Source: Rapana venosa
Taxonomy: Eukaryota; Mollusca; Gastropoda; Neogastropoda; Muricidae
Reading direction: 5' to 3'
NCBI GenBank assembly: GCA_028751875.1
Contig: CM054153.1
Span: 19,595,453 to 19,659,452 of the forward strand
DNA: 64,000 nucleotides
Made by a program: the position numbers and the translations under genes. Below the pieces are notes generated by a model, which saw only the letters and a program-made list of their open reading frames with translations, made no database searches and was not told where the DNA came from. Shown in pieces: positions 277-51,174 of the stretch. Each line of letters opens with the position of its first letter. Positions within the stretch are counted from its first letter, which is position 1.

Positions 277-686
277 ATGTCTACGAAAGTGAAGAAGACA
301 ACTACGACAACAACATACTCGACGCAGTCGACCTCAGGTATGGAAACGCCAGGTACAAGCGCCTTTTCTCCTCGAAGACGAGAGCGGCCGCCATCGCCGG
401 CTCGAACCACTCGCCAGCAAGAACAAGAGGAATTACAAGGTCTCAACGATCGTTTGGCCAACTACATCGACAAAGTACGCTTTTTGGAGGCCGAGAACAG
501 TCGCCTGTCCACTCAGGTCCAATCCACAGAGGAGGTTGTGAAACGTGAAGTTTCTACTGTCAAGAATTTGTACGAAACTGAACTTGCTGATGCCCGACGT
601 CTGCTAGACGAAACCGCAAAGGAAAAGGCCCGCATCCAAATCGAAGCCAACAAGTATAAAACAGACTACGAGGATCTCTTGGGAAA
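277..686 (+). CDS. Lam: Lamin exon 1: head, coil 1A, start of coil 1B
   Basis: Encodes residues 1-137 and ends two bases into a codon at the donor GTAAGT (687-692). It contains the diagnostic coil 1A helix-initiation motif [19 protein letters not shown]. The AA left at the end joins G at 2164 to give Lys. Confidence 0.95.
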
Positions 687-2990
687 GTAAGTTGTTCAAA
701 TTTAGACCGACTACTGCCTGTTTAGTTCTTATTTTTCTTGTTAGTTTGGGGGTTTTGTAGCAGGAACAGGTGATTGATCTAGGCTCTTTGTTTTTTCTTT
801 AAGTCATTTGCAAAACCCACTTTGTTTCAGTGCTGAGTCAGTGTCATTGTGTGGGTGTGCGTGTGTTGACAGGAAGGTAAAGTGACCCCACCTTGCACAT
901 CGAATCTATAGGCTTACTGATTGTACTTGCAGGATGTTCTTGCCCCTGCACTGATTGTACTTGCAGGATGTTCTTGCCCCTGCAAGTATTAGACAGTAGA
1001 GTAGTGGAGGTAAACAAGTGAAGGTAACCAGAACTTTACAATTTCTTCATTTTGAAAAGGACGATCAAAGGTTCAGTTAAGAAGGAAAATCAGGGGGAAA
1101 AACATTGAAGTAAGTAGTATACTTTTTAAAAAAAAAAACACCAATCTAAGTTACTGCATATTTCTCTGTGAAATTTGGGCTGCTCTCCCCAGCATCACCA
1201 CAAGAGCAGCTCCCCCCATTATTTTTTTTCTTTTCCTGTCAGCTTATGTATTTGTTTCCCTATCACTATCAAAGTGGCTTTTTTCTACATTTTCCAGCAA
1301 CAACTATTGTTGCTGTGTGTTCTTAATGCACAAAATAATTATGTGTAACATATGGGACCTCAGTTTATCGTCTCATCCCAAAGACTAGCACCCAGATCAC
1401 CATTCATGGTTTAATGGATGGGGGAAGTGATCCAGAGATCCAACCACTGCACACTTGGGACCCAGACTTTTTGCTTTCTAGGCAGGTGGGTTACCTCTAG
1501 TCTAGACCACCAACCTCATGATGTAACTTTCAAAACTTCAGTCATAACAGAGTTTGTTGTTGTTTTTTTAAACACCTTTTGCATAAAACACAAAAGTTGA
1601 ATATGTTGTGTACTCTCATTGTTTATCATTGTGTACTTCAGCCCTCTTTCATGCCTAATTTAAACTGTTTAAACATTTATCTCTTGTTGATTTTTAAAAA
1701 AAAAAGGTTTTCAGGATTTGCTGTAGCTGCAGCTGTTTTAACTAAAATGTGCACAGCTCATTTTGTGACAAGAGTTGTACATGCTGGTACTGAGTGGTTG
1801 ATACCTCCAGCAAACATTTGCTGATAATGAATTATTCATTTATTGCCATTAAATCACAATGATTATAGAATTTATATTACTGTGAATATTATTATGTTTG
1901 CAGAAAAAAAAGAACCCTCAGCGAAAGTGAAGCATTATATTAATGTTAGATTGTAATGTGTTCATTGAAGTTGTGTGTTGAACCTTGTAGGTTCGATCAC
2001 CCTCAGCAAAAGTAAAGCATTATAATGTTAGATTGTAATGTGTTGATTGAAGTTGTTGTGTGTTGAACCTTGTAGGTTCGATCACCCTCAGCAAAAGTAA
2101 AGCATTATATTAATGTTAGATTGTAATGTGTTCATTGAAGTTGTTGTGTGTTGAACCTTGTAGGTTCGATCGTCGCGACCGCGAAGCCACAGCTGCGGAG
2201 CGCCGTGTGGAGACGTTAGAAACTCAGGTCGCGGAATTGACGGCCAAATTAAACGATGCCGAAGGACCCCGCAAACGTCTGGAGAAAGAAAATGCTGTAA
2301 GAATCATTTCAAAAGGGTTTTACTTGCTTGCTAACACTTGGCCTTATTTTGTGTCAATATGTCTTTCATTTTAAACTCCACTGAAAATGCATTTAATGAT
2401 TAATTTCTTTTTCACAATGTCTTGCACATCAGTTATGATATATTTTATGAGCAATGTACATTACGCTATATAAATTCCATATTATTATTATTACCCAACA
2501 CTACTAAATTGTAAGAATGGGTGAAGAGGAGGGGGGTAGGGATTGAAATTAAATATTGGTACAGTATGTCACTGTATGTGAGAGTTTTGTTTCAATGGTA
2601 AAATTTCAGTAGAAAAGTACAAAACTTGAAAGGCAGGCCAAATGTTTGTTTTCAATGTTTGTTGTGTCGCAAGTTCCCTCCCCCAACTTGGGCCAGTTTA
2701 AGGAGTTTTAGTCTGAAAGTTTCTGTTTTAACTTTTATGGTCGAAATATGTGTAATTTGTGTTTATAAGAAAGCATACATTTCCTTGTTCATGATCAGAG
2801 GGAAAATAGCCTTCATTGTGAAAGCAGTATTGTACAGGGACTATTTTATTTGATAAAAATGGTAATATTTATGAGCACAGGCAGAACTTCTGTACTGAGT
2901 GATTCAATTCATATATGGAAAATATTTTTTGACCACTCATGTGCATATTGAATGAAAGGTGTGTCAGCGCGCACGCACACACACACACAC

Positions 2991-3045
<55 letters not shown>

Positions 3046-4642
3046 CACACACACAACATGCACACACACACAGACAGAGTTTGTGAATGCATGCATTGAT
3101 GTCTTTTCAAACAAACCCTTAACACAAAAATGCCCCATTCCGTGCAGGCTTTACGGGCAGAGATCGCCAACTTGGAGAAACAGTTGGCGACGGCAAAGAA
3201 ACAGATCGAGGAGGAGACGCTGCTGAGAGTGGACCTTGAGAACAGAGTGCAGAGTCTCAAGGAAGACATCCACTTCAAGTCCCAGGTCTACGAACAGGTC
3301 TGTGGGCCACGCCAGTTTTCTGTCACACGTTTTGAAAGAACTGCTGTGCAGTGTTGTTGCCTTGTGTTCGTTACTGTGGTTAATGAAAGCGTAGTGTTGT
3401 GTGTGTGTGTGGAGTATTTCACTTAGTTATATCTAGAGGGAGGGATATTAACCCTAGTAGCGCTAAATAAACAGCAACAAGCCTCACTTCTATTGGCTGA
3501 ATTAACATTGGCTAGCATTGTTTTGGAGCATGGTGGGCTCAAACAACCCTTGATATTGATATATAAAACTGAATTAAATGTGTTAAGCTATAGATCACTG
3601 GAAAGAAGAGATAATATGCTTTTAAATGAGTATAATTTTATAATAGTGTGTAGTGTTTATGATTATGTAAAAATAAAAAAAAAATAAAAAAATCATGTTC
3701 GCACTACCGATCACTGTTCCACTGTCAGGGCCCCGGATCGATTTTAACACGATAAGCAAAGTTCTTGCGGTGCATAAATGTCATGATTAGGTAAACACTA
3801 TTTCTTGACATTAGTTTTCAAAAAATAAGGAGTTTGTATCGCTTTATCGGTCACCAAATACTCGGAAAAGTTCAGCGACAGGATCGACGCCATCGCGACC
3901 GTCATGGCGGAATGTGCGAAGTGGTGGCTTTCTATGACAAAAATACAAAGATCGCTTGATTTCATGTGATGCAAAGTGCTCAGCAGCATAGCGATTTGAC
4001 TCAACAACAGTTATTTCGAAGCCTCGTTGCGTCAAAATAAAGTAAAACAATCTGTGACGTCGAAATCGCCGAGTAGCGAAAAAGTCCATCCAGCAAAACT
4101 AGCACCGCTCGATTCAGTCCGATCGCGATCGATTTTTACCAAGTTTTTCAAAAATATTCCACAATCCTTACCTCATCGTCTCTCTCATTGTTTATTTCAA
4201 CCAAATCCAGCCTCTAAAACTCCTCCTCGCTGTCAATTTTGTAAAAAAAAGCTCGAAAAACGCTTGAAGAAATTCTAGTGCAAACGCTGGCCGCCATTTT
4301 TGTTGAAGACGATCTCGGCTGGTCCGAAAAAAAATTAAAATACACTCTTAACCAATCAGATTCTTCGTTGCTTGTGTGTGTCAAACGACCTTCACCCCTT
4401 TCTGCGGGCCTACAACGGCCTTAACATTCATTGGCTGACCTTTGAAAGCGAAAGTAAGCTTTCAACTATGACCACCCACGTCATCCCGGAATATTCCGGG
4501 ATCCGCCACACAGCCTAGACCCGCCTTTCCCTGAATATTCCGGGAACCGCGCCACTAGGGTTAAAGCCTGGTAGTTTTACATACATGTACATGCATAGGC
4601 ATGTGTGTGCTCGTACACACACAACACACACACCACACACAC

Positions 4643-4676
<34 letters not shown>

Positions 4677-6148
4677 TGAGTGAGAAAGACTTGAAACACA
4701 CTACCGAAAACAATTTGTAACAGTGCTTCGTAACAGTGCTTCGTTTGACTGTTAACTGTGTAGTAAGCTCCAATAGCAATTCTTTCTGCATTTCAGACAC
4801 ATGTGTAATTTGTAACAGTGCTTCGTTTGACTGTTAACTGTGTAGTAAGCTTCAGTAGCAATTCTTTCTGCGTTTCAGACGCACACGCAGACGTCTATGT
4901 GGAATTCATTTCTTCTAAGTTATTTTTAAAACATGGTTTTATGAAATGTAAACTTGCAGGAGCTGGAAGAGTCCAGGATCCGTACCACGACGCGGATTGA
5001 TGAGGTGGACAACCGCTTGGAGCAGGAGTATGAGCAGCGGCTGCTGGAGGCTCTGCGCGACATCCGAGCCCAGCATGAGGCGGACCTGATGACTGTCCGC
5101 ACGGAACTGGAGACCCTCTTTGAAAACAAGGTCAGAGCTGCTGGCACGCTTTGCAGAGTGCCCAGTGAGACTTTCCCGGCAGCTGTTGTGTTGGTAAAGA
5201 AGTTAGATGTGGAATCAGTTTTATAAAGCTGCCGGTGCTTTTCAGACCAAATGTTTTGTTTTCATGGTCTACTTTTTTTTTTAATTTAGAAGGGAAAGGA
5301 TAGTGGTAAGTATTTTTTATAATATCTGGTATTGGAAATAAACCAGTTGAAAATAATGCGAGTTTTTTTTAAGTGATACACCCATCTATGCTTGTAGTTT
5401 TGTATATTATAAATTGGTTTTTTTTTAAAAAGTGGTAAAATGATCCAAAGATGGTTAAAGAAGAAAAAAAGAACAGAGGCTGGAGTATGAAGTCTTTTAT
5501 CAGCTGACAGTTGCATGATATGAATACACACACTTTGATTTGTTTGCATTACAAGATTCAGCGTTGTATAAATTCCATACATTATTATTATTTGTGGTTT
5601 TTTCATATCTATCTAGATACATACCTACACGTACTTTGCTGACATTTACTATGACGTTTATCCATTTGTTATCTTCAGATAGCTGACCTGAAGGCACAGG
5701 CTGAACGCAACAACGCCTCAGCCGACAGCGCCTGGGAAGAACTGAGCGTCACAAGGAAACGGTGTGATGAGCTGACTGCCGAGCTGAACAAACTCAAAGC
5801 AGAGGTGGGTGTGCCTAGCCACTTGGTGGAAGTTTCTCTGCCCATGCTGATATTTTTGGTCCCGGTTCTTTTTCTGTACAACAGTGCTTAGTAATGGCTA
5901 CATTGCTGTTGGTGTCACTTTTGAAAGAGTAAGAGCAAACCAGGAATGATAAAGATGGATTTGTTTTTTTCATGTCTTTCCTATTTCGATGTTAATAATA
6001 ATAATAATAATAATAATGTATGGAATTTATATAGCGCTGAATCTTGTAAAGCAACAAATCAAAGCGCTCAGATTTGAATTCGGGCTGCTCTCCCCGGGGA
6101 GAGCGGGAGAACGCGTCGCCACTTAGCGCTGCGCCACCCTTTCACCCT

Positions 6149-6180
<32 letters not shown>

Positions 6181-6299
6181 CCCTGCAGCTGTATTTGTTT
6201 CCCTATCAGAGTGGCTTTTTTCTAAGAATTTTGCCAGGGACAACTCTCTTGTTGCCGTGGTTTTTTTTACGTGCGCTAAATAATTACGTGTAACACACG

Positions 6300-6330
<31 letters not shown>

Positions 6331-9300
6331 TAGCGCCCAGACCACCACTCATGGTCTAATGGATGGGGGAAAAATTTCCGGTCCAAACGGGGTACGAACC
6401 GCCGCACACTTCAGACCCGGTCTTTTCGCTTTCTAGACAGGCGCGTTACCTCTAGACCACCGATCCATCCGTTCATGTTCATTGATTGCAGAATGCCGTT
6501 TTGTTCTCTTTGTCCCCTGTTCATTCTTCGGTTGAATTTTAAACATAGTGCAATCTATCTGAAATGTTACTTGACAGGTTTTTGAAGGAAACTACTTTGT
6601 CCACCCAAAAAAACAAGGCAGTGGTTTTAAAGCTAGTAAAAGAGACTTTATGTGAACGTCAGGAAAGAAATGTTTCATGACACGGTGAAAAAATTTGAAG
6701 CAACCAAGAGTCGGGAACACGTTTTCTTCTTCTTCTTCTTCTTCTTCTTCTTCTTCCAGTCCTGACTTGGAAGTCCTGTTTCTCTGTTGTCAGAACGCTG
6801 GCTACGAACTTCGCCTGCGGGACTTGGAGAACCAGCTGGCAAGGGAAAGGGAGGAGTTTCGCCTTCGTCTGGCCCACAAGGACGATGAGCTGGCCGACCT
6901 TCGCCTGACCTTGGAGGAACAGCTGGCAGAGTACTCTGACCTGCTGGACATCAAGATCCGGCTTGACCGGGAGATTGACGCCTACAGAAAACTCCTGGAG
7001 AGCGAAGAGACCAGGTTAGTGGTAGCGGGTTGATTCTGCAGGCTGGGGGATGGTGAGGGGACCTGTTCTTTGCAGTAGCAAGCAAAATGTTCGGTTTCTT
7101 CAGAGAGAAAAATAAATATTACGATAATGGGTGGGGAAAGTCTCGGGAGTGTAAATTTCAGTTGCAGTTCGAGCCCAGTGTCTTGTTTTTAGAAGTGTAG
7201 CCATGACGTGGGTGTTTTGCTTAGCTGTCAGTTTGTTACAGTTGGTAAGAATGACGAGTCTCGTGAATTGTGGAGAAACGTAGCGACTCAAATGTAATAA
7301 GTAATTGAGTAGTAACTCAAAACATAATTTTTTCACAGACTCAACATTCCCTTGCTCACAGACCCCACATTCCCTTGCTCACAGACTCAACATTCCCTTG
7401 CTCACAGACTCAACAGTCCCTTGCTCACAGACTTGACACCCCCTTGTTCACAGACTCAACATTCCCTTGCTCACAGACTCAACATTCCCTTGCTCACAGA
7501 CTCAACATTCCCTTGCTCACAGACCCAACATTCCCTTGCTCACAGACCCAACATTCCCTTGCTCACAGACTCAACATGCCCTTGCTCACACACTCCACAT
7601 GCCCTTGTTCACACCCGTGTTCACAGACTCAACATTCCCTTGCACAGACTCCACGTTCCCTTGCTCACAGACTCAACGTTCCCTTGTTCACAGACTCACC
7701 ATTCCCTTGCTCACAGACTCAACATTCCCTTGCTCACAGGCGCACCATTCCCTTGCTCACAGGCGCAACATTCCCTTGCTCACAGACGCAACATTCCCTT
7801 GCTCACAGACTCAACATTCCCTTGTTCACAGACTCAACATTCCCTTGTTCACAGACTCAACATTTCCATGGACTCTTCCCATGCTTCCTTGCTCACAGAC
7901 TCAACATTCCCCTGTTTACAGACTCAACATTCCCTTGCTCACAGACTCGACATTCCCTTGCTCACAGACTCGACATTCCCTTGCTCAGACTCGACATTCC
8001 CTTGTTCACAGACTCAACATTCCCGTGCTCACAGACTCAACATTCCCTTGCTCACAGACTCAACATTTCCCTCGACTCCTCCCAAGCTCCCTTTGCTCAC
8101 AGACTCAACATTCCCTTGTTCACAGACTCAACAGTTCCTTGGACTCTTTCTTTGCTCACAGACTCAACATTCCCTTGCCCACAGACTCAACATTCCCTTG
8201 CCCACAGACTCAACATTCCCTTGCCCACAGACTCGACGTTCCCTTGTTCACAGACTCAACATTTCCTTGTTTACAGACTCAACATTCCCTTGTTCACAGA
8301 CTCAACATTCCCTTGGACTCTCCCCAAGCTCCCTTGCTCACAGACTCAACATTCCCTTGCTCACAGACTCAACATTCCCTTGTTTACAGGCTCAACATTT
8401 CCTTGGACTCCTCCCAATCGTCACAGACCAGTCGCTCCCCAGGACGGTCCACACCAGCGGGCAGGGGAACGAAGCGCAAACGGGTGGACATTTCAGAGGC
8501 GGTGGAGGAATACAGCGAAAAGAGTTCCACCTCCGGCTACGCTCGGGCAGTCAGTGCCAAGGGCGGCGTCGATATTTCGGAGGTTGATACCAACGGCAAG
8601 TTCATCAAGCTGACCAATACTACCTCCAAGGTGAGTTGTGAGAGAATGTGGTTACGAGTGGAGAATGGTTTTGTATTGCCTGGAAAAGACTGGCCCAGGC
8701 CAAAACCTGTGTCAGTTATTGATGCCAGCTAATTGCCAAGGCCTACACTAAAATGTTATGTTGTAAAATGTTGTGTTGAGATTGCCTTCAGCCATGACAA
8801 GCTCTTAACTTAACAACCTGCACTCTTAAAGGAGAAAAAAATCCTCTGAAGTCGGAGTATGGCTGCCTATTTGGCGAGGTACTTGAAAATAGTCATACAT
8901 GCAAACTTCCATCCGGTGTGCTTCCTATCTCATAGTGATTCCCAGGTGGGATGAGTGAGTCAGAGTGCACGTTCTGGGTGACCCCCAGAGTGTAAAGCTG
9001 GGGAACGCACCACAACACAATAACAGCCTGGGAAAGATTTTTAGCTGTGGAAAAGAGGGAAAACCAACCGTTAAGTTCCATTGCATAGTGTTTTCTTATA
9101 AACATGGGAAGCTTTCTTTTTTATTGTAAATTATCAAGTACTGATAATGTATTTTATGTGATCATTTAGAAGTTAAGGTTAGACTTGTGGGCAGTTTAGG
9201 ACTTTTTTCGTTTTTCTCGGTTTTTTGCTTTGATCAAGTCAACTCCAAAACTTTTGACATCCCCCAAGTGCGCGCATGTGTGGCATTACTGGTGAATCAC

Positions 9301-12300
9301 GTTTGCCTTGTTCTCAGAAGACTTCAAGATACACAGTTCTTTATGTACATTCATGTGAATGCTACAAGTGTGGCACTGTAGGTTGCGTGTTGTCTGCATC
9401 TTTCTTTGCGAACTTTACCTTTTCGTTTCTAAAAACCATTTTTCTTCATAAGTTTATGTGTGCGTGTATAAGTGCAACATTTGCTGGTTGGTGATTATGT
9501 TTGGCAAACTTTCAGCCTTTGTGCTTCCAAGAATCACCATCGTATATTGGGAGTTTGTGTGCTTGTGCAGGACATACCAGTGGGCTCCTGGCAGTTGAAG
9601 CATGTGGCTGGGGAACAGGAGACTGCCTTCAAGTTTCACCGCAGTCTGGTGGCCAAAGCCAGCAGCACCATCACTGTGAGTAGCGCTGCTGCTTTCTTGT
9701 CTGTCAAGGGGGGGGGGGGTTAATATTTTTCCTTTCTGTACAGAGGGGACGGGATAGCTCAGTGGTCGGAGCACTCGCTTTCCCCCAGCCAAGTTAAGCA
9801 GCGTCGAGCGTGGTTACCAGTTGGATGGGTGACCGTTTGCGTGCCTTGGCTTCAGTACAATTCCCCCAGTTCACCCAGCTGTAAATGGGTACCTGCCCTC
9901 TTTAGGGTCAGGGAAGGTAAAGCAGCGAGGGAGAGGAGATGGGCGCCGCCCTCAATATGCTGGCCCTAGAGAAGTGAGGTCTCTGACGCCTCGCTCCCCT
10001 ACGACCTTATAGGTTATGGGACTCCTTTACCTTTCCTTACCTTTCTGTACTGGTTTCTGCTTCTTGTAAATAGAATTTCTGATTTTGGAAAAGTTTTCTG
10101 AGTTTTTGTATATGTGTGTGTATGCACCTTCTCTGTGTGTGTGTGTATGTGTGCATGGTTTTTCAAATTGCTAGTAAAACAAGGGTGCGGTAAAGAGACA
10201 GAACTCAACTTTCCAGTCTATTGCGTGCGGTTTTTAAGCTTTGACCTCTGGGGTTCAGTTGCCCTTGTTATTGTAGAAAATACTGTTCATATGATGTTCT
10301 TTTTATCTCTGATACATCTAGTCTGGTCAGATGATTCCAGAATCAAAGAGAAAATTGGTCTTGTCGTTGTGTTTCAGACTGTTTGGCCATTCGTGGTACT
10401 TTCTTTTTTGTCTTTGCTTTGGCAAGCTGGTACTACAGTGAAACTTTCTTTTCATGTTTAAAATGTTTGAAAATTTTTTGTTAAAATTCATGTACGTGTA
10501 TATTTTTAATTTCATAAACTGAGTGTTGTTCTGGTTTGTTTGGAACAGGTGTGGAGTGCAGACTCTGAAACAACCCATAACCCACCCAGCGATATAGTGA
10601 TGAAAGGCAAACGTGGTTTGTGTCAGATGATATGAAAACGATGCTCTTTAACACTGACGAAGAGGTGAGTAGCAGCAAAAAGCAGAATGGACTGAGAAGA
10701 TGTGCTTTGGTGCAGAGTTGCTATGCATTTTCAGATCATGTGAAATATGATTTTTTTTTCCTTCTTCAAAATTTGAAACAAGTGTGTGTGGTTTGTGAGC
10801 AAAAATGGAAATCCTTTATTTTGGTGTGATTACAGTGGTGGAGGGAGAGGAGGTGCATGAGTACAGGCACACATACATGCACACACACACACTCAGTTGC
10901 GTACTTTGTCCTGGTTTGTTGCGTGTCTGTATGTGCATGAAAGATTCTTGCTAACAAACCACAGCCACTCTACAGAAAGTGATGAAATATTCAGTGAATT
11001 TTCCCCCAAATGTTTGTTGTTCAGGTTCACTGGTGGAAGGTTTCTTCGATTTATTTTTATAGTGATGAACTAAGAACACAAGTCAAACTGCTTTAAGGCA
11101 GAAATTCATAAACCTCTGTGCTTTTCCCAAATCCATTTCCCAAATTTCTGTGCTTAATCCATTTCCCATATCAAAACAAAACAGACATATAAAAAGCCCC
11201 GAACAAATAAACAAAAACCACACACCCAAACAAACAAGATATATATATATTAAAAAAATCCACACACAAAATCAGTGCATAGTTTGTGTGCCATTACTCT
11301 TTTTATGAGGGAATATTGTTCTCGGACAGGAAATGGCAACTTGCACAATGTCGAAATCATCTCTTCGAAGCGTCACATCCTACACTCAGCGACGCTCAGG
11401 GCCAAGGGATGAACTGGACGCTGGAGAGGTATGATACCACTGGAAATTGCATCAGTCAGCTCATTTTTATGTACTGTATATATTTTCCTTTGTTGTTGGG
11501 GGGGGAGGGGGTTGGTTTTTTTTTGGCCAGAGCTTTGAGGTTTACCATTGGTGAGATTTTGCTTCTGCGGCTGTTTGTACCCACCTTTAAGGTAGCTGCA
11601 TTTCAGACTTCAGGGATGGTAACTAAACATGACACCTGGGTGCATGTGGGGTTTTGTTTGTTGTTTGTTTTTTTACATTAATTATTGTCACCTGTTCCTA
11701 CCAGTGTGAAACGGCCTACTCTTCTGAAAGTCGGAGCTGGTTTTTCATGTATGCACAATATGGTTTGCGTGCTTTCGTACATAGGACCTCAGTTTATAGT
11801 CTGATCCAAAGGACTTTTTTTTTTTTTAGGGAAGTGGAGCAAGTACAATGTTAACTCCAGGGCAAAATCCCTACAAGCGTTGCCTCTTGAGGTGACTTGG
11901 TCCTAGGCTGTCAGATCACAAGTGCAACACTAACCACTAGGCTACCCATCGCTTCTCCACCCATTTTTGTTTTAAAATAAATTTCTGAAAATTGTTTGTT
12001 ATCACAGTGATCCTCGGACGCAATGAGTCAGACAGTGCATAGTCTTGGTGATTGTCAAGGTGTAAATGCAGGGGGGGTACTCCACAACTTTTTTTTTCCC
12101 CATCCCCCCACTCTCCGTGTCCTTGTGAATTCCCACAATGTTCAGCATGTGATGAATGTCGGTTTGGTTTCTGATGGAAGGTAGTTCAGTTCAGAAAGGT
12201 GTATGATGCACAAAAATTCTGAAACATTTTCTGTGATCTGAGAGGTTAATGAAAAGCTGGGTAACTTCTTATTTTTATAGACACTCGGAGAACTGTGTAA

Positions 12301-13580
12301 AGACCTGGATTCATCAGGAAATAACATGTTGCCTCACCTTTCCATGTGTTGGTTTGAGAGTAAAACCAAGTGATTTAATTTCTCCTCTGTCACGTTTTTT
12401 TATGGGCTTAAAAAATTGAACCCGTAAGATGAACAGCAATGTGTGTGTGGCTTAGGTGAAAAGTTGTGCCAATTACTGGTGTAAGGAAAGTGCCATGGGC
12501 TGCATTAAAATTGAATGGGATGGAAGTAGAAATTAACCTTTTCCCTGTAGATAACCCACTATAGGATAACCGTGGATCGGTGGTCTAGAGGTAACGCACC
12601 TGTCTAGAAAGCAAAAAGTCTGGGTCAGAAGTGTGCGATGGTTCGAATCCTGTGAGGGCCCGAAACTTTTCCCCCATCCATTAGACCATAAATGGTGGTC
12701 TGGGCGCTAGTCTTTCGGATGAGACGATAAACGGAGGTCCCGTGTGTTACACAAAATTATTCAACGCATGTAAAAGAACCGACGGCAACAAGAGAGTTGT
12801 CCCTGGCAAAATTCTTAGAAAAAGCCACTCTGATAGGGAAACAAATTCAGTTGCACACCAAAAAAAAAAGGGTGGCGCTGCTCTTGTGGCGACGCGCTCT
12901 CCCCGGAGAGAGCAGCCCGAATTTCACGCAGAGAAATCTTGTGATTTAAAGAGGTATAAATAAATAAATACTAACCCTTCCCTCCGTATCACCCACTACT
13001 GGGTTACAGTAGCATACAGATGTGTACAGTGCACGTGTACTGGGAAAAGGGGGTTCTCTCCCTTAACGTAGGGATAATGTTAAACAGGGGGGGGGGGGTG
13101 AGTCATAAATGAAAGTGGGGATTGACGTTCGGATGACAGTATTCCCCCGATTGCAGGGTATATTTTGAAATTGATGATAGGAGTAGTAGTTGTCATGTGC
13201 ATCATTTTATGGTTTCTGTTCAGCTTATTTTTATTTATTCTTTTGTATCGAGGATAATGAAATAAGCACTCGTGTGCTTTTTTACATGCAGTCCCCGTGT
13301 GTATGCGGTTTTGTAAATTTTGTCATCTGTTTCCACCGGCACACAATGGCCTACTCTTCCGAAAAGCGGAACAGGATTTAACGTGTGCACAAGATGTTCT
13401 GCATGCATTTGAACATGGGGCCTCGGTTTATAGTCTCGTCCGAAGGACTTGCTGGACTGATCACATGCTCAGCCCATGTACACACACACAATCCCTTCTT
13501 TTTTCTTTTTTTTCTATAACTTTTAACAATTGGTTTGTTTGTTACAGGGAGTGGACAGGGAGAAGTGTGTTGTGATGTGA
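277..13580 (+). CDS. Lam: B-type nuclear lamin, 11 exons, 601 codons
   Basis: This is a nuclear intermediate filament protein that polymerises into the lamina under the inner nuclear membrane. Coding exons are 277-686, 2164-2296, 3148-3297, 4960-5130, 5679-5804, 6794-7014, 8390-8630, 9571-9675, 10549-10664, 11330-11428 and 13548-13580. All have GT/AG borders and matching phases. Visible in order are a short Ser/Thr/Arg-rich head with a [11 protein letters not shown] phosphosite-like stretch, the coil 1A start [13 protein letters not shown], coils 1B and 2, the rod end [13 protein letters not shown], the nuclear localisation signal TKRKRVD, an Ig-fold tail, and a C-terminal CVVM that fits a farnesylated CaaX box. 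The start ATG at 277 was chosen because it gives a lamin-length head; the open frame upstream has no lamin-like sequence. Length is normal for a B-type lamin. One base is missing in exon 9 (near 10612), so the literal sequence would truncate the Ig fold. The exon 7 acceptor is embedded in a minisatellite. Confidence 0.96.
916..983 (+). repeat. 35-bp tandem duplication in lamin intron 1
   Basis: Two nearly exact head-to-tail copies of a segment running from ACTGATTGTACTTGCAGG to TTGCCCCTGC. Each contains an acceptor-like TACTTGCAG. Confidence 0.85.
1176..1516 (-). mobile_element. tRNA-derived SINE (family A), antisense in lamin intron 1
   Basis: In reverse complement it begins with a tRNA-like head (GGTGGTCTAGAGGTAAC). 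It continues with the shared central block (AGACTAGTGC/GATGAGACGATAAAC) and the GGGAAACAAATAC...GAGAGCAGCCC body seen also at 5995-6470 and 12567-12968. It lacks the AT-rich 3' tail of the second copy. Confidence 0.75.
1914..2163 (+). repeat. Tandem triplication covering the lamin exon 2 acceptor
   Basis: About three units of 85-88 bp, each ending TTGAACCTTGTAGGTTCGATC. TAG ends at 1990 and 2075 are decoy copies; the one at 2163 is the functional acceptor, judged by frame and homology. After either decoy, the reading frame meets TAA within nine codons (GTTCGATCACCCTCAGC... then AAAAGTAA). Confidence 0.9.
2164..2296 (+). CDS. Lam: Lamin exon 2: coil 1B
   Basis: Continues the rod as [19 protein letters not shown]... 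up to EKENA, residues 137-181. The donor is GTAAGA at 2297. It closes in phase 0. Confidence 0.95.
2970..3072 (+). repeat. (CA)n microsatellite
   Basis: Nearly uninterrupted CA repeat in lamin intron 2, ending about 75 bp before exon 3. The long histidine/threonine or cysteine/valine reading frames here are artefacts of the repeat. Confidence 0.95.
3148..3297 (+). CDS. Lam: Lamin exon 3: coil 1B
   Basis: Fifty codons (residues 182-231), [19 protein letters not shown]... to [11 protein letters not shown]. The acceptor is CGTGCAG and the donor GTCTGT. Both borders are phase 0. Confidence 0.95.
3448..4564. mobile_element. TTAA-flanked inverted-repeat element (piggyBac-like, non-autonomous)
   Basis: The element runs 3452-4560 and is flanked on both sides by TTAA. 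Its ends are inverted repeats: CCCTAGTAGCGC at the left and, read inward from the right, CCCTAGTGGCGC (11 of 12 identical). TTAA duplication with CCC-starting termini is the signature of piggyBac-superfamily transposons. No transposase-like open frame lies inside, so it is a non-autonomous derivative about 1.1 kb long. Two CCCGGAATATTCCGGG-like palindromes sit near the right end. It lies wholly within lamin intron 3. Confidence 0.8.
4612..4675 (+). repeat. (CA)n microsatellite
   Basis: CA repeat with a few AA interruptions, just outside the right end of the TTAA element in lamin intron 3. Confidence 0.9.
4709..4885 (+). repeat. Tandem duplication with acceptor-like ends, lamin intron 3
   Basis: Two copies of a segment running from AATTTGTAACAGTGCTTCG through TTGACTGTTAACTGTGTAG to TTCTTTCTGCATTTCAGAC. 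Each carries a good 3'-splice-like TTTCTGCATTTCAG. The true exon 4 acceptor is 75-160 bp further on, at 4959. Confidence 0.85.
4960..5130 (+). CDS. Lam: Lamin exon 4: rod, coil 1B to linker 12
   Basis: Fifty-seven codons (residues 232-288), [18 protein letters not shown]... to [10 protein letters not shown]. The acceptor is CTTGCAG and the donor GTCAGA. Confidence 0.95.
5545..5594 (+). mobile_element. SINE 3'-tail fragment
   Basis: Contains ACAAGATTCAGCG, then TATAAATTCCATACATTATT ending in ATT repeats. This is the tail shared by the SINEs at 5995-6470 and 27553-27985. The body is absent. Confidence 0.6.
5679..5804 (+). CDS. Lam: Lamin exon 5: coil 2
   Basis: Forty-two codons (residues 289-330), [21 protein letters not shown]..., bordered by ATCTTCAG and GTGGGT. 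Confidence 0.95.
5995..6470 (-). mobile_element. Full-length tRNA-derived SINE (family A) in lamin intron 5
   Basis: Read in reverse complement it has all modules. A tRNA-like head (GGTGGTCTAGAGGTAACGC) carries a degenerate box B. Next come the central GTCTTTCGGATGAGACGATA block, the body ending GAGAGCAGCCCGAATT, and a tail TTTGATTTGTTGCTTTACAA... TATATAAATTCCATACATTA followed by (ATT)n. A poly-T/poly-A run interrupts the body. Confidence 0.8.
6722..6757 (+). repeat. (TTC)n microsatellite
   Basis: A TTC repeat ending about 37 bp before lamin exon 6. It may contribute to the pyrimidine-rich region ahead of the acceptor. Confidence 0.9.
6794..7014 (+). CDS. Lam: Lamin exon 6: coil 2 to the end of the rod
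   Basis: Residues 331-404, [19 protein letters not shown]... to [15 protein letters not shown], which is the conserved intermediate-filament rod terminus. It ends with AG of an Arg codon at the donor GTTAGT and needs one base from the next exon. Confidence 0.96.
7322..8389 (+). repeat. 23-bp minisatellite built from the lamin exon 7 splice acceptor
   Basis: About 42 tandem units, mostly 23 bp, each starting CTCAACATTCCC and ending TTGCTCACAGA. Each unit holds a branch-like CTCAAC, a pyrimidine-rich stretch, a CAG acceptor and the first bases of the next exon copy. Four longer units (for example near 7855-7897 and 8298-8342) also carry TTCC(A/T)TGGACTC-type sequence matching the true exon start at 8390-8425, which shows the origin. 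The unit has no stop in most registers, so all three forward frames stay open for about 1.2 kb. Three units give a 23-residue period ([12 protein letters not shown]...). The true acceptor is best placed at 8389 by lamin homology. Confidence 0.95.
8390..8630 (+). CDS. Lam: Lamin exon 7: tail start with nuclear localisation signal
   Basis: The first G completes Arg, followed by [19 protein letters not shown], the basic signal [11 protein letters not shown], and the start of the Ig fold ([17 protein letters not shown]). Residues 404-484. The donor is GTGAGT at 8631. Upstream minisatellite acceptors in the same frame, from the one ending at 7453 onward, could add repeat-encoded residues before this point. 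Confidence 0.92.
8686..8985 (+). mobile_element. About 300-bp dispersed repeat with a SINE-type core, lamin intron 7
   Basis: It matches, over its whole length and in reverse complement, 48135-48440. It includes GGAGTATGGCTGCCTA, the block seen in other short dispersed copies in this window. Shared landmarks are GGCCCAGGCCAAAA, GAGATTGCCTTCAGCCATGA and GATGAG(T/C)GAGTCAGAGTGCA. Confidence 0.75.
9571..9675 (+). CDS. Lam: Lamin exon 8: Ig-fold tail
   Basis: Thirty-five codons (residues 485-519), [16 protein letters not shown]... to ASSTIT, aligning with the lamin tail pattern G-x-W-x-(I/L)-K-R. The acceptor is CTTGTGCAG and the donor GTGAGT. Confidence 0.95.
9742..10039 (+). mobile_element. 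Chimeric tRNA/5S-rRNA SINE in lamin intron 8
   Basis: The head is tRNA-like (GGGATAGCTCAGTGGTCGGA, box A). It is followed directly by a 5S-rRNA-like segment (CCAAGTTAAGCAGCGTCGAG and TTGGATGGGTGACCG), then a unique body ending GACCTTATAGGTTATGG. An exact 11-bp target-site duplication, CCTTTCTGTAC, flanks it at 9731-9741 and 10040-10050. Close copies lie at 24931-25221 and, inverted, at 32643-32931. It is not a functional tRNA or 5S gene. Confidence 0.88.
10549..10664 (+). CDS. Lam: Lamin exon 9: Ig-fold tail, with a one-base frameshift
   Basis: Begins [21 protein letters not shown]. It then needs a one-base shift near 10612-10614 to continue [17 protein letters not shown], which matches the lamin tail. 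Read literally, the frame reaches TGA a few codons later. The exon is 116 nt; with one added base it is 117 nt and both borders are phase 0. That points to a single-base deletion in an otherwise intact exon. Confidence 0.9.
11330..11428 (+). CDS. Lam: Lamin exon 10: end of Ig fold and C-terminal linker
   Basis: Thirty-three codons (residues 559-591), [20 protein letters not shown]... to DELDAGE. The donor is GTATGA, so retention of the intron would end translation after one extra codon. Confidence 0.93.
11530..11640 (-). mobile_element. Short dispersed repeat (SINE core fragment)
   Basis: In reverse complement it reads CCCTGAAGTCTGAAATGCAG, CTACCTTAAAGGTGGG..., AAAATCTCACCAATGGTAAA and CTCAAAGCTCTGGC. 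About ten copies of this 100-120-bp block occur in the window, for example at 21020-21115, 21870-21990, 43240-43350, 49632-49720 and 61505-61615. Confidence 0.65.
11690..11960 (-). mobile_element. tRNA-derived SINE (family B), degraded
   Basis: The reverse complement has a tRNA-like head (GATGGGTAGCCTAGTGGTTA), then the GGAGTTAACATT block, TCAGACTATAAACTGAGGTC, and GAAGAGTAGGCCGTTTCACA. A poly-T run interrupts it. Confidence 0.65.
12567..12968 (+). mobile_element. tRNA-derived SINE (family A), sense copy in lamin intron 10
   Basis: Head GGATCGGTGGTCTAGAGGTA with box B-like GGTTCGAATCC, then TCTTTCGGATGAGACGATAA, CAACAAGAGAGTTGTCCCTG, and a body ending GAGAGCAGCCCGAATTTCAC. It ends in (AAAT)n rather than the usual tail. 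Confidence 0.8.
13220..13465 (-). mobile_element. SINE family B, headless copy just upstream of the CaaX exon
   Basis: Reverse complement contains GAGACTATAAACCGAGGCCC, CAGAACATCTTGTGCACACG, CGGAACAGGATT in antisense, and a terminal ATTATCCTCGATACAAAAGA. It ends about 80 bp before the lamin exon 11 acceptor. Confidence 0.75.
13548..13580 (+). CDS. Lam: Lamin exon 11: CaaX box exon
   Basis: Ten codons, [10 protein letters not shown], then TGA. CVVM is a C-a-a-X motif of the type farnesylated on B-type lamins. The acceptor is TTTGTTACAG and the phase is 0 with exon 10. It is separated from exon 10 by a 2.1-kb intron holding two SINEs. Confidence 0.93.
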   Translation, partial: GVDREKCVVM

Positions 13581-26743: not shown

Positions 26744-29700
26744 ATTCTAATATTCAACTGGGATTTCCCCAAAACAGCAGACACCTTTTGGCAGCTGCCT
26801 AGTATGTACCTCTTTCCGTAAAGCTTTCTGTTGTGTGTGTGTGTGTGTGTTTTCACTCTATGCTTTTGGTTTACACGTTAGGGCCTGCATGCCTCGCATC
26901 TATTTTCAAACGACGCTGAAGCCACTTGCATTGAAAGCAAAACTTGCAATGGGAAAATTAAAAAGCCCAGGTATAGACAGTGTCAGTAGGCCTACCACAA
27001 ACGCACATTGGTCGACATTCGCTCCTGCGGTAATTTTTTTTTCTATAACCAAGGAAAATGCTTATAATTAACCTTTCCAGCGATCATAGTCATAGAGCTT
27101 TTCGGTAGTTTACACTTGCTTGTATATGTTTCTCAGTGAAGATGATACAACAAACTAAAGTTTATGCATATTCAATTAGGTCTAGGAGATCGATTTCTGA
27201 CATACATTTGTGTTTGGAAAAGCACACAAAAAACAACAACCCTACAATGTTGACCTTTGTTGGTGAAAAGCGGCAAAGAAAAGTTGAAGCTAAATGATGA
27301 AAGAAGTCAAATCAGGCATTAACAACCATTCATAATAATAATAATAATAATAATAAAACTAAGCCAGATTTGTTCACCTTGGAGTCTGACCTGCACCTGA
27401 CAAGTCAGGCCCAGCATATACCCGACTCAGGTGTGGGAGGAGACTTGTTCTCTTAATGGGCAATGCAACAGACCAAGAAGGCAGAAAATAGACAAGAAGG
27501 GGGTGACAGGAAGAAAAAGAACAAGGCAGAAACAAAAAAGATGGATAGAAAAGTGAGAAGGAAGGTGGCATGATGGTTAAGACGTTTGCCTGCCAACAAG
27601 TAAACCGTGAGGTTCTCGGTTCGATTCCCAGCCTCGCCCTTTCTTCCCAGTTTGACAACAACAAAAATCGAACTGAATGTCAAAGTCTTTCGGATGAGAC
27701 TATAAACCGAGGCCCCGTGTGCGAACGCATGCAGAACATCTTGCGCACATGTTAAACCCTGTTCCGCTTTTCGAAAGAGTAGGCCATTGTGTGCCGGTGG
27801 GAAAAGATGACAAAATGTACAAAACTGCATACACATGGGGACTGGATGTAAAAAAAAAAGCAAAGCACATGAGTGCTTATTCCATTATCCTCGATATAAT
27901 CTGAGCGCTTTGATTTGTTGCTTTACAAGATTCAGCGCTATATAAATTCCATACATTTTTATTATCATTATTATTATTATTAATTCCAGAAGGTGGGGGT
28001 ATTAACTATACTGCCGGGTCCCTGGCATTCTCACAGGAAAAGGTTGCGATACAAAACTCAGGTATGTAAATTGATGGTTTCAGAAAATCTTTGACAGCAG
28101 AAAATCAACTGATCTTGTGCTGTGCACTCTTGTATATTCATTCATTCCAGATTGTTTATAGCCCTACCGACCATGAAAACCATATCAGGGCTGTCACCTC
28201 AATCAGTTTCAGTCGCTTCAGTCACTTTCACGTCAAGTTAAAAACGAACACCTCCTAAAACCTTCAAAAATCTAACACTGTCCTGCTGGAAAAAACCCCC
28301 ACCCACCCACATTAAATGACACAATACCTAAATCTTTCATTCCTTAAGGCTGATAAACCAGGCTGTGCTGAGGACGCCAGCCATTCCGCTTAATTTATCA
28401 TCCCAAATTACAAAAAAAAGCAACAACAAAAAATTAGAAAAAAACCATTTGAAAGTCTTAAAAATATACATTAAAAAAGTGTCACATAGGCAATCAACAT
28501 TGCAGAATAGACATACTGGGCTCATCCCAGTGTTCAAATATCACTACTTAGCTGCCAGAACAAAAGAATACAGGAAAAATGTCATACAATAAAAACATAA
28601 TATATTTGGAAAGATTTGCTCGAAAAAAGGCATGAGAATGGACTGGGAAGGCAAAAAAAAAAAAAAAAAAAGCAAGAGAGATGATAACAAGGTAAGGAGA
28701 AAGACAGAAACAAAGAGAGAAAGAAAAACAAGTGGAAATTTCTTGTACAGAATTTCCAGAAGGTGTATAAGCCTATGTAACACCTATCACAAAAGAGTGC
28801 TTTTGTATTTGTTGTTACTAAGTATCTTCTTCTTCAAGTGTCCAGTCTGGTCCTGCAGACATCGACGATCATGGCTCTCCATTCTTCCCTGTTCTCGGTC
28901 CCTCTCATGAGCTCATTGTTGGCCCTCTTTATTCGTTGCGAATTTGTTTAAGCTGTCTGTGAATTTTGTTCGTTGTCTTCCTCTGCTCTTGTTTCCACAG
29001 ATTTTGCCACTCCATAACAGTTTCTCTAGTCCGTCAGCCCTGATTATATGGCCGAAAAATTTGAGCTGTCTTTCTCTGATGGTGTTGAGAAGGGATCTCT
29101 TGTACCCAGCCATTTCCATTACTTCTGCATTTGTTTTTCTTTTTGTCCATGAGATTTTCATGATTCTCCGGATGAACCACATTTCCACTGCTTCTAGTCG
29201 CTGTTCTGTGTCCTTGGCTAGGTCCAGCACTCACATCCGTACAGAAGAATGGACCATACGTAGGCTCTCAAAACATGGATCTTTGTCTTGAGGCTTATCT
29301 TACTGTTGGTAAAAATGCATTTCATGTTGTTAAAAGTTGCCTTAGATTGACCGATTCTCTTCTTGACTTCTGTGTCACACTTGCCGTCCGGGGTGATAGT
29401 ACAACCAAGGTATTTAAAGGTGTTTACTTGTCTGATTCTCTCTCCTTTACAGGCTATGTTGCATTGTGGTATAACAGCTTTTTTCGAGATCACCATGCAT
29501 TCTGTCTTCTTTGCATTGAGCTGTAATCCTTTCTTTTCGCTTTCGTCTGTTACTGTTGTTAAAATCTTTTGCAGTTTTTCTTCAGAGTCAGCGATAAGGA
29601 CTGTGTCATCTGCATATCTCAGGCTGTTGATGTTGTGGCCACCTACACTAATTTGCTCATGATTCTCAATATTTCGTAGAATTATTTCACTATATACATT

Positions 29701-31237
29701 AAATAAACCAGGCGAGAACACGCAGCCCTGCCTCACACCCCTGCAGATTGGTCTATATTGACTGATGTCATTGTCGACTCTAATGGCTGCCTCCTGTTCC
29801 CAATAATATGTTTCTGAGGACTCCAAGATCTTTCCCGTCGATGTATAGCCCTGCCAGAATATCAAACAAGTCGGAGTGTCGTACTTTGTCGAACGCTTTT
29901 GAGTAGTCAATGAAGCAGAGGTACAGGTCTTTCTGGACCTCGATGGATCTTTCCATGAAAGTTTTCAATGCCAAGATTGCATTTCTGGTGCCTTTGTCTG
30001 CCATGAATCCAAATTGCGTTTCTGATATTAAGTTACTAAGTATAGAAGGGGAATAACTCCAATGCACCACAAGAGTAATCTCTCTTGTTGAATTATTTTC
30101 CTTGATATTTAAACTTTCTTTCTATTTCCTCCCAGAAGGTAGAGGGGAGAGCATGGTTGCTCAAGACTCTTAGGAGTCTGATGTTCCCCATTAAGGTATG
30201 GATGCTCTTTTTAATCTATATGGTTGCTCATTTTAAGCTAATTTCAACTTAATTTTAAAAGGTTGGAAAGGTTTATGAGGTATCTGTTTAATTTTGTTTT
30301 TGAAGGTTTCAAGCTTGGGAATTTAGAAGTGATTATTTTGAACAAGAAAGCAAGTGGCAAATTTGAACTTAGTCACCGTCTTTGTTGTACTAGTTCGATT
30401 TTGGGTAGAATATTGTTCAGCCAACAAATTGCTGAAGAAATCAAACTAAGGTTTATCACTGTGTATAATATATGTGTGTAAAAGCCTAGTGTGGTTTTGT
30501 AATGATTGTTATTATTAAGAATGCAAACTTCTATTTTTTGTGAGGAATGAAATAGCATCTTTAAACAGGTGCAATGACTTTGGAATGTCATTGGGGATTG
30601 ATCGATTTAAATGAATGTGAATTAATGTTTGCACAATTTCATAGGATAGACCATCAGCTGTCCTCAAGTAAATGAAACATGTGTAAGACTGTAGTTATTG
30701 TATGTGGTGGTTTTGGTGGATATGTTAGATTTGTTGTGGGGATACTTATTCTCATAAGAGTTGGGAAATGGGTAAGCTGAGAGTACATTTTGAAGATTTG
30801 TTTTATTATGGCAAACTCTGGTTAGTGTTTCAGTTTTTGCTGTGTGGGTATTCATATTAAGTTGTCATTAATATGTTATACCTGAAAGTGTGGGTCTTGC
30901 AGTAATTTGGATCCCTGATCCTGTGATAGAGTTTGATTTTATGAAGAGATCAAATGGTTTATTGGTTGTTCTTTTTTTATTTCAGGAACATCGCTGTAAT
31001 CCCTCTCATCGCTACATCAGGTTTCATCAATACATCGTCTACATCATTATCATCGTTTATCTTTCTTTTGATCATTTAACTGATCTTTTGATCTGTGATC
31101 TGAGACAATCCTTAATTAGTTGTATGTTGAGGACTGGACAGAATTATGTTTTTAGTAACTGGACAAAATAATTAACAGAATAGTTTGTGTTTTAAATTGT
31201 ACTTGTAGTACAATTGGTGATGTGTGTGATTGTAGTT

Positions 31238-35289: not shown

Positions 35290-38042
35290 AGTTGAGTGCC
35301 AAGTGAGGACCAGTGCTCCCGTCCATCCCGAGGGATGCTACTGCCAGGTTTACAAAGGTACCACCTCTCCTTAAGCACACCATACACGCCCAAAAAAGAC
35401 ATTCTTATTGTGGAAGGCGACTGGAATGTAAGGTGGGACCTGATGCCTATGACACCTGGGCAGGAACCACAGGACGCTTTGGACTAGGAGAAACAAACGA
35501 AAGAGGACAGCGGCTGCTGGAATTCGCACAGAAGCACAAACTAACTCTGGCAAACACACTCCATCCTCACAAGCCATCTAAAACATCAACTTGGCACTCA
35601 CCAAATGGTCTGATTCACAATCAAATTGAGTACATTCTGTCACCCCAAAGATTCAAATCCAGCATAAACAAGGCAAACACAAGAACATTCTCAGGAGCTG
35701 ACATTGGCAGTGACCACGACCTTGTACTTACCACCATCAAGCTAAAACTAAAAGCAAAACAACAGCCAAAAAAACCCACGCATAAGATTTGATCTGGAAA
35801 AACTCAAAGACCCAACAGTGGTTGAGATCTTCCAAGCCAACATTGGAGGAAAGTTCGCCGCACTCACAGCCATCGACAATGATGTGGACATACTAGCCAA
35901 CAACATCAAAGAAGTGCTATTGACAGCAGCAGAAGAAACATTAGGAAGAAGCAGAACAAAGAAACAACCCTGGGTGACAAATGAGGTTCTTGACCTCTGC
36001 GACAAAAGAAGAGAGCTTAAGAAACAAAAGTTCACAAGTCAAGAAGCCAACAACAAATACAGGAATAGCCACAGAGAAGTGAGGAAAAAGATGAGAGAAG
36101 CCAAAGAAGCGTGGATAGAAGAACAATGCCACAGCATCGAAGTTGGAATGGCCAAGGGAAACAGCAAAAACAACTTACGACACTCTGAAATCACTAACTA
36201 AAACCACACAGCCTAAAGCCTCTGTTATTGAAGACAAAGATGGAAATCTTTTAATGGAAAGCAATGCCATCCTCCAACGCTGGACGGAATACTGTGAGGG
36301 ATTGTATAACTACCCACTACGCCCAGATACCAACATAGTTTCTGACAAACCCCCCGAACACCAGGATAAAGACCCACCAATACTAAGGTGTGAAGTAGAT
36401 ACAGCTATTAAACAATTGAAGAAGGGAAAGTACCCTGGAATCGATAACATCCCAGCTGAACTCATAAAAATGGAGGGAATGAAACAGCAAGGCGATTCAC
36501 AGAACTTTGTCAGAAGATCCACGACACCAAAGAATGGCCAGAAGAATGGACACAGTCTCTTGTAATACCCCTACCAAAGAAAGGAAACCTCAAGCAATGC
36601 CAGAACTACAGAACCATCAGTCTCATAAGCCATCCTAGCAAGATCATGCTGCGGGTAGTCCTCAACAGACTGAAAAACCAAGCGGAAAAAACTCTGGCAG
36701 AAGAACAAGCGGCTTTAGACCAAAACGCAGCACAATGGAACAAATTTTCAATCTGAGAATTCTGATAGAGAAACATCTCCAACACCAAAAAGACTTGTAT
36801 CACAATGTCATAGACTTCAAAAAGGCCTTTGACAGGGTATGGCATGACGGCCTCTGGCAAGTACTCAGGCACTTCAACATTGACAACTGCCTCATTGAAG
36901 TCATCAAGGCACTGTACGAGAACGCAAGAAGTGCAGTTTTCATGAACAATCACATGGGCGAGTTCTTCAAGACCACGGTTGGGGTCCATCAGGGCTGCCT
37001 TCTCTCACCTGTACTTTTCAACCTCTTCCTCGAAAACATCATGACAGAGACACTGCAAAACCACCACACTTCCATCTCCATTGGTGGAAGACCCCTTGGC
37101 AACCTCAGATTTGCAGATGATATTGACCTCATGGGCGGCAGCAAACAAGAACTGCAAAACCTCACGGATAGTCTATCAGATCGAGTGAGCGCATACGGCT
37201 TGGAGGTCAGTACAGAGAAATCAAAGATCATGGTCAACAGCGCAAGTAATGACAGCAAGGAAATAAAGATGAATGGAGAAATACTGGAAGAGGTGAGCCA
37301 ATTCAAATACAGAGATCTTTTTCCATGCTTCACGATCCTGTGTGGCTAGTAGAAGGTGTTGATGTCAACCCATGATTTCTTTTGGCGGCCTCTTCTTCTC
37401 TTGCCTTCAACTGTTCCCTGCAGAATTCAAATTCAAGGCTCCATCCTAACAAAAGATGGCACATCAAATAATGAAGTGAAAGCTCGCATTGCAACAGCAA
37501 CATCTGCTCTAGCCAGACTCGAGAGGATCATCAGAAGCAACAACATCAGCTTCTGCACCAAATAATTTTTATTATCACCTTTACAAATCCCTCGTGATAT
37601 CTATCCTCCTATATGGCTGTGAATCATGGACTCTGTCAGCAGAGCTAGAGAGGAGAATCCAAGCATTCAAGATTAAGTGCCACAGAAGACTCCTCAAAAT
37701 ATCATACAAAGAACACAAGACCAACAACTATGTGAAAGAAGAAATCAAAAAGCCTGTGGGCCCCAAAGAACCTCTGCTCTCCACCATAAAGAGGAGAAAA
37801 CTGATGTGGTTTGGTCACACCACAAGACACAACACCTTAGCAAAAACCATCCTGCAGGGAACAGTTGAAGGCAAGAGAAGAAGAGGCCGCCAAAAGAAAT
37901 CATGGGTTGACATCAAAGAATGGACCGCCCAACCCCTGCAACACCTTCTACTAGCCACATAGGATCGTGAAGCATGGAAAAAGATCTCTGTCGCGTCTTC
38001 TCTCATGTCCCCCCTACATCCTTTGAGACATGAGACTGAGTG
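35290..38042 (+). mobile_element. Degenerate non-LTR retrotransposon: endonuclease end, reverse transcriptase, 3' end
   Basis: In order it contains an endonuclease C-terminal part (GRFGLGETNERGQRLLEF, GSDHDLVLTTIKL) and a linker (KQPWVTNEVLDLCDKRRELK, YCEGLYNYPLRPDT, KKGKYPGIDNIPAELIK). The reverse transcriptase follows (DFKKAFDRVWHDGLW, GVHQGCLLSPVLFN, LRFADDIDLMGGSKQEL with an FADD active site). The 3' part is LLYGCESWTLSAELERRIQ, KRRKLMWFGHTTRHNTL and GRQKKSWVDIKEW. Several frameshifts and an inserted inverted copy of its own 3' end (37310-37423) inactivate it. The 3' end is a GACTGAGTGAGCGAGTG tail. The clade is not assigned, but RTE-like is most probable. Confidence 0.87.
37310..37423 (-). 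repeat. Inverted partial copy of the element's own 3' end
   Basis: It is the reverse complement of 37852-37990, nearly identical, with 25 bp missing between two CAA trinucleotides. A 9-bp direct repeat AATTCAAAT flanks it (37300-37308 and 37424-37432). It splits the reverse transcriptase frame between FKY and GSILTKDG. Confidence 0.85.
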
Positions 38043-49720: not shown

Positions 49721-50630
49721 AGCTGAATTGTTGCAAACACTTTGTATCTGCTTCCATCGTGTGTAAACATTTACGTGTGCAGTAACTGAAGGAAATGAAC
49801 AAAGATATGATTTTGTGCTTATAGGGCTAATGTACATGTGCGAAAGTGTTTTCCCACGGTTTGAGAAGGCGTTGGGGAGAAAAGCCTGTGAAAATGCGAA
49901 TTTTTCCATGAAAAAGAAGTGTTTTTGTGTGGTTGCTCAAGTGTCCATGAAAATTGGTCAGTGTCCCTGATTTTCAATGGCTTTGCCCCAGAAAGTCAGG
50001 TAAAGAAATGCCTGCAATAAAACATGAGATTAAAGATGGAGCAAGACTTAAGTCCTATGGCTTTCCCTGTCATAGGGCAGTGGTAGGCACACAACAGCAT
50101 GCACTGAAAAGGTTAACCATTTCAAACGATTGTAACAGAGTGGAGATAGATCACCTCCCAGCACTGCAAAACGTCAAGAGTTTACGGATCATGAACTGAA
50201 CAGTGGAGAGATTGTGTGGCCTCTATGAAGAGGTTGTATAAATTCTACCAAATAAGGCGAAAGTGTATGTAGGGAGAAGTCAGAAACTACCACCGAAGGA
50301 AACACGAGTATGGCACAGTTCGCTGGTGCGTCTTATTTTAAGAACATGGCATTGTGCTTGTTCTCCTTCCACAAAGTAGGCAGTTAGGACCACCTTTCAC
50401 AAAAATTGAAATAGAAAAAAACCCCAACCTTTAAGCCTGTGTATTTTGTCACCACCTGGTCTGTTTGTGTTTGCACCGTTACCTTTGCCACATTTTTTTT
50501 ATCTGGTTGCAGTTATGGAAATCTTTTTGGTTTTTTTTTGTGTTCCTCAGCAAGACATTCATCAGTGGTCAGATTTTTGCCTAGGGATTGTTTTTGTTTC
50601 CCCCCACAATTTAGGTAGCCGCATTCGGAC

Positions 50631-51165
50631 TTCGAGGATGTGTCTTAACACATGTGTCTTTTTGTGTGTTAATTTTGTTGACTTCGAGGATATGTCTTAA
50701 CACATGTGTGTCTTTTTGTGTGTTAATTTTGTTGACTTCGAGGATGTGTCTTAACACATGTGTGTCTTTTTGTGTGTTAATTTTGTTGACTTCGAGGATG
50801 TGTCTTAACACGTGTGTCTTTTTGTGTGTTAATTTTGTTGACTTCGAGGATGTGTCTTAACACATGTGTGCATGTGTCTTTTTTGGGTTAATTTCGTTGA
50901 CTTCGAGGATGTCTTAACACATGTGTGCATGTGTCTTAATTTTGTTGACTTCGAGGATGTGTCTTAACACGTGTGCATGTGTCTTTTTGTGTGTTAATTT
51001 TGTTGACTTCGAGGATGTGTCTTAACACATGTGTGCATGTCTTTTTGTGTGTTCATTTTGTTGACTTCGAGGATGTGTCTTAACACATGTGTGCATGTGT
51101 CTTTTTGTGTGTTAATTTTGTTGACTTCGAGGATGTCTTAACACATGTGTGCATGTGTCTTGTTT
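50631..51165 (+). repeat. Minisatellite of about 50-60 bp units
   Basis: About ten units, each with TGACTTCGAGGATGTGTCTT, AACACATGTGTG and TTTTTGTGTGTTAATTTTGT. The first unit is preceded by AATTTAGGTAGCCGCATTCG, the antisense end of the short dispersed repeat, so the array seems to have grown from its edge. Confidence 0.92.
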
Positions 51166-51174
51166 TGGTTAATT

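Follow-up and report, generated by a model that had tools for sequence, protein, structure and literature searches.

A lamin gene with a minisatellite in intron 6

The stretch of DNA analysed here, a 64,000-nucleotide window of the genome of the gastropod Rapana venosa, carries a lamin gene at 277-13580 on the forward strand, modelled with 11 exons and canonical splice sites. The features expected of a lamin are all present, including a Filament rod, a basic NLS (KRKR), an LTD and a CaaX motif (CVVM). The product of exons 1-8, which form a single open frame when joined, matches the Pfam Filament (3.8e-73) and LTD (3.3e-09) domains as well as solved lamins; exons 10 and 11 are also open, and the gene ends in CVVM. 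Within exon 9, an apparent single-base frameshift that was not found in the relatives read interrupts the LTD, which suggests that the assembly is wrong here or that this copy of the gene is damaged. Among the 120 matches listed of 470, the highest identities are those to lamins from Babylonia areolata (90%) and Nucella lapillus (87%). Both of these snails also possess a second, more distant lamin (P0006 of Babylonia, 76%; P0008 of Nucella, 73%), and neogastropods may, judging from these sequences, retain two lamin genes. Elsewhere in the window, a minisatellite of 54-58 bp units in about nine copies lies outside any recognised gene (50628-51176), and three ORFs at 36119-37346 (+), 29221-30121 (-) and 45919-47293 (+) resemble, by eye, fragments of retroelement reverse transcriptase and gag/protease.

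The array occupies the intron between the end of exon 6 (7014) and the start of exon 7 (8390), and Tandem Repeats Finder places it at 7333-8405. When it is cut at the acceptor, 36 of its 43 units measure 23 nt, two 21 nt, two 44 nt, and one each 45, 36 and 12 nt. An AG stands at 42 of the 44 unit junctions, the authentic acceptor at 8389 among them, in agreement with the original prediction of about 42 tandem 3' splice sites ahead of lamin exon 7; the two remaining junctions (7591 and 7614) are neighbours and read AC. The consensus of the 23-nt unit, ACTCAACATTCCCTTGCTCACAG, corresponds to 16 nt from the start of exon 7 with the final 7 nt of the intron behind them, exon 7 itself beginning GCTCAACATTTCCTTG and being preceded by ...TTGTTTACAG. 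One unit (8254-8276) is identical to this founder apart from A for G at +1, and 49 substitutions are spread across the 36 units of 23 nt. Longer units had also been predicted to copy more of the true exon, and four of them (starting at 7855, 8058, 8126 and 8300) do carry more of exon 7, reaching roughly nt 28 as judged by eye. A boundary-spanning 35-mer finds its copy in the intron with a score of 27.5, relative to a maximum of 11.0 in 50 shuffles, and the likeness is thus far beyond chance. At the left edge, the sequence ...GTAACTCAAAACATAATTTTTTCACAG, with a TnAy motif 23 nt before its AG, is probably the ancestral end of the intron. A 44-bp founder (16 nt of intron plus 28 nt of exon) was considered and rejected because, as judged by eye, the left edge ceases to resemble the units about 7 nt upstream of the junction. 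The features are collected in Table 1.

Table 1. Features of the lamin gene and its boundary duplications (positions within the window)
Feature	Position	Strand	Description	Basis
Second boundary duplication, end of intron 1	1914-2171	+	copies of 85, 85 and 88 bp; acceptors 1990, 2075, 2163	Tandem Repeats Finder; shuffle test
Lamin exon 2	2164-2296	+		gene model
Lamin exon 6, end of rod	6794-7014	+	donor ACCAG/gttagt	gene model; Pfam Filament
Array left edge	7305-7338	+	GTAAC at -23, six T, CACAG, before first unit	
Acceptor array	7339-8389	+	43 units; 42 unit-end AGs, 7338 to 8389	Tandem Repeats Finder; cutting at acceptor
Two adjacent units	7569-7614	+	terminal AG changed to AC	junction listing
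Long unit	7855-7898	+	44 nt; about 28 nt of exon 7 copied	unit listing
Long unit	8058-8102	+	45 nt	unit listing
Long unit	8126-8161	+	36 nt	unit listing
Founder-like unit	8254-8276	+	exon 7 nt 1-16 (A for G at +1), then TTTACAG, the authentic acceptor's last 7 nt	
Long unit	8300-8343	+	44 nt	unit listing
Authentic end of intron 6	8367-8389	+	top rough acceptor score of 42 (11.43)	
Lamin exon 7	8390-8630	+	RLNIS..., NLS KRKR, start of tail domain	gene model; Pfam; relatives
Lamin exon 9	10549-10664	+	apparent 1-nt frameshift versus relatives	gene model; comparison with relatives

Acceptors, branch motifs and reading frames

Acceptors were scored with a rough matrix based on the consensus for acceptors in general. 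By this measure the array holds 35 acceptor-like AGs with a score of at least 9, or 33 per kb, versus 0.92 per kb over the remainder of this strand. The median unit acceptor scores 9.19, above six of the gene's ten acceptors (range, 4.48-11.43), and the 42 AGs with this median make the units plausible autonomous acceptors, in keeping with the view that a 3' splice site has been amplified. The spliceosome was also expected to face a choice among near-identical acceptors, and there are dozens of them, but they are not equal: the authentic acceptor ranks highest of the 42, helped by its U-rich tract and by the G at +1.

Branch-like motifs are dense as well, with 40 yTnAy motifs in the array (38 per kb, versus 19 per kb across the whole window). 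The motif CTCAAC, proposed earlier as part of the unit, is present, but CTCAC, a yTnAy motif that stands 26 nt upstream of the AG at 8389, fits a branch site better. In a typical unit, CTCAC stands 3 nt upstream of the unit's AG, which is probably not far enough to act on it, and the following AG is 26 nt away (seen for 8363 and 8389); the branch sites and AGs of neighbouring units may therefore be used in an interleaved way. Structured RNA was entertained and ruled out for the folded part, 8100-8395, which is unusually unstructured, its fold being less stable than those of 200 of 200 shuffles (z +4.66).

Joined to exon 6, 13 of the 42 acceptors are in frame, roughly as expected if every third unit keeps the frame, and 12 of them are also free of stops, namely the authentic one plus 11 that would insert 30-312 residues; the thirteenth (7384) runs into a stop inside the array. 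The 29 out-of-frame acceptors all reach a stop, and together with 7384 they bring the number giving premature stops to 30 of 42. The array is open throughout in two frames and has one stop in the third, which looked striking as a possible sign of coding selection. Over the 36 units of 23 nt, 3.6 stops would be expected under the observed substitution spectrum, and one or fewer occur in 8.8% of simulation runs (P = 0.088); under a generic spectrum, the corresponding values are 5.5 stops and 2.0% (P = 0.020). The openness of the array is thus borderline, and selection on the array is not claimed.

Direction of copying and a second duplication in intron 1

Comparison with relatives indicates which sequence was copied. 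A sequence pattern located the rod-tail junction in 111 of the 120 listed relatives (of 470 matches), and in 100 of these 111 the residues at the start of exon 7 are RLN. The basic motif follows within 39 residues in all 111, none of which has an array-sized insert before it; in the window's own protein the distance is 28 residues. The nine proteins without the pattern were left out of this count, one of them being Nucella P0002, which is colinear by eye. The start of exon 7 is therefore old, and the array is a copy of the exon rather than the reverse. A look at lamin relatives for the array itself had been proposed, and a query with exons 6-8 returned 11 hits among 214 candidates. Three of these hits read from intron into exon 7 (P0122, P0123 and P0124), and none has an array unit directly before the exon; all three are fairly distant (75-81% identity), extend over just 4, 6 and 30 codons, and have their intron assigned by inference.

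Boundary duplication has also occurred independently at the end of intron 1 (Table 1), a case overlooked in the original prediction, where every copy holds the acceptor CTTGTAG plus 8 nt of exon 2, GTTCGATC. The two upstream acceptors share with the authentic one 21 and 30 nt of upstream sequence as well as 8 nt of downstream sequence, and all three score alike and weakly by the rough matrix (4.48). Use of either upstream acceptor would give KFDHPQQK and then a stop, and only the last copy gives protein. As the upstream copies share this sequence and yet stop early, the shared stretches cannot be what singles out the last copy; if the gene is used, that copy must be picked by something outside the shared sequence, most simply the downstream exon.

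Only two of the ten lamin acceptors clearly pass 50 shuffles, those of intron 1 (23.0 versus 9.5) and intron 6 (27.5 versus 11.0), and no duplication of a donor junction was found among the ten lamin donors. The exon 5 donor was set aside as a candidate; its best match (10.0 versus 9.5 in 50 shuffles) is marginal and does not span the junction. When the six repeat founders were placed at random, at least two spanned acceptors in 0.27% of runs, and at least two lay at any boundary in 1.1%, in a placement test that is post hoc, concerns one gene and includes two overlapping rows among the six from Tandem Repeats Finder. Further tandem duplications lie within introns, away from exons, at 4730-4880 and 916-984 (82 x 1.8 and 34 x 2); their units contain acceptor-like AGs with rough scores of 9.27 and 6.58.

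A probable mirage-type minisatellite and its alternatives

Minisatellite-like tandem duplications across intron-exon boundaries have been described in amphioxus as "mirages" (PMC3087553, PMC3902484), and the following comparisons refer to the available text of these two papers. Mirages occur in Adh3 and in the globin genes BflGb6 and BflGb9 (PMC3087553), with PGBD5 and troponin C as further cases (PMC3902484). In Adh3 the units measure 10-72 bp, and many mirage units, though not all, carry splice signals (PMC3087553, PMC3902484). The BflGb6 mirage duplicates the 3' end of an intron together with the start of exon 2, in six units in one haplotype and three in another, each of 150-160 bp (PMC3087553). 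In the lamin gene, too, the unit holds an intron end and an exon start (7 + 16 nt in intron 6; about 85 bp with 8 exon nt in intron 1), and the repeat derives from an exon that stays intact at one edge, the start of exon 7 being conserved in relatives. The lamin case differs in having 42 acceptors and a 23-bp unit, and in having two 3'-boundary duplications within a single gene. It also comes from a gastropod, whereas the reported range of mirages is the cephalochordates, although range is not a structural criterion. The original prediction that no such case had been described therefore is not supported for the kind of structure but holds for lamins in the literature searched: no mollusc or lamin mirage was found among the open-licence papers searched.

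Other repeats are also linked to splice sites. A human interferon-induced minisatellite reported by Turri et al. in 1995 is said to contain multiple splice donor sites; its units likewise offer splice sites, but these are donors in a human gene, whereas the lamin array consists of acceptors. Alternatively spliced human introns have reportedly been traced to tandem arrays by Zhuo et al.; there, too, the repeats are a source of splice sites and introns, but the introns are new, while here an existing intron has been extended. NAGNAG and other tandem acceptors are pairs of adjacent 3' splice sites, separated by a few nt, that compete with each other; such competition would be shared by the lamin array, but there the sites number in the dozens and are set in a minisatellite.

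Taken together, these observations make it probable that the array is a minisatellite of the mirage type, that is, a near-neutral duplication of a boundary whose last copy is spliced by virtue of adjoining the real exon, with possible leakage from the others. A 23-bp tandem duplication across the intron 6/exon 7 junction (7 + 16 nt) would have arisen in the snail lineage and then expanded. Exon 7 begins with 16 pyrimidine-rich nt, so each copy would provide a pyrimidine tract for the AG of the next, and would also lend it a branch-like CTCAC or CTCAAC, making most units resemble self-contained 3' splice sites. We infer that the spliceosome mostly takes the last copy, the sole one that adjoins an intact exon and the slightly stronger one. 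The upstream copies would stay intronic apart from some leakage, through which 11 acceptors would insert 30-312 residues; 30 others would end translation early, and their transcripts would probably decay. Lamin function would restrain the array, whose origin is probably near-neutral. That the spliceosome "must choose" among acceptors, as it was put originally, need not imply varied products, since in amphioxus both the Adh3 data and RT-PCR of the globins point to regular splicing in genes with mirages (PMC3087553).

A larger role for the array, in which duplication within this gene or genome would favour 3' splice sites (minisatellite-prone acceptors across distant phyla, as in amphioxus) and the array would act as a length-variable competitor that tunes the amount of functional lamin, is unlikely. 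It is quite unlikely that the array is a regulatory decoy that loads U2AF or SF1/U2, or yields frame-shifted, decayed transcripts, its length tuning lamin output. Dense, unstructured acceptor and branch motifs would suit such a decoy, as would the 29 frame-shifting acceptors, but the AG columns show no significant excess of conservation over the rest (changes in 2 of 72 AG cells and in 47 of 756 other cells; p = 0.30, or p = 0.24 once neighbouring repeats are collapsed), and in the three distant relatives whose sequence reaches upstream of exon 7, no unit lies beside the exon.

We consider it very unlikely that the array serves to generate lamin isoforms, its in-frame acceptors adding repeat linkers of 30-312 residues between rod and NLS. 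The 12 open acceptors, the authentic one included, and the two open frames are compatible with such linkers, yet the other 30 acceptors are out of frame or stopped, and the openness is not clearly beyond chance under either substitution model. Moreover, when the in-frame array ORF was searched against 5.8 billion proteins, of which the 8000 candidates sharing the most words were scored, it matched only nine proteins, all lamins; eight cover 19% of the query and P0011 covers 32% at 50% identity, but five words of the array are absent from all 131 proteins compared, P0011 and the other eight hits among them. It is just as improbable that the array was inflated by assembly or that the gene is a decaying, non-functional lamin copy. 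The exon 9 frameshift points that way, as does the best protein match, which reaches only 90% and belongs to another species, so that no annotated product of this gene is among the matches listed. Simple duplication by the assembler, however, would not produce the substitutions seen among the 23-nt units, and the open exons, CVVM end and canonical splice sites argue against decay.

If the array is a mirage, boundary-spanning minisatellites now extend to molluscs, far from amphioxus, and at a copy number well above that described for BflGb6. The lamin gene would then be a natural experiment in 3' splice-site choice, the correct acceptor of intron 6 standing behind dozens of others that look strong. 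Invariable use of the last copy would mean that scanning and local strength are both overridden by some other factor, for instance exon definition; otherwise, the levels of isoforms and of decay for an essential nuclear protein should depend on array length.
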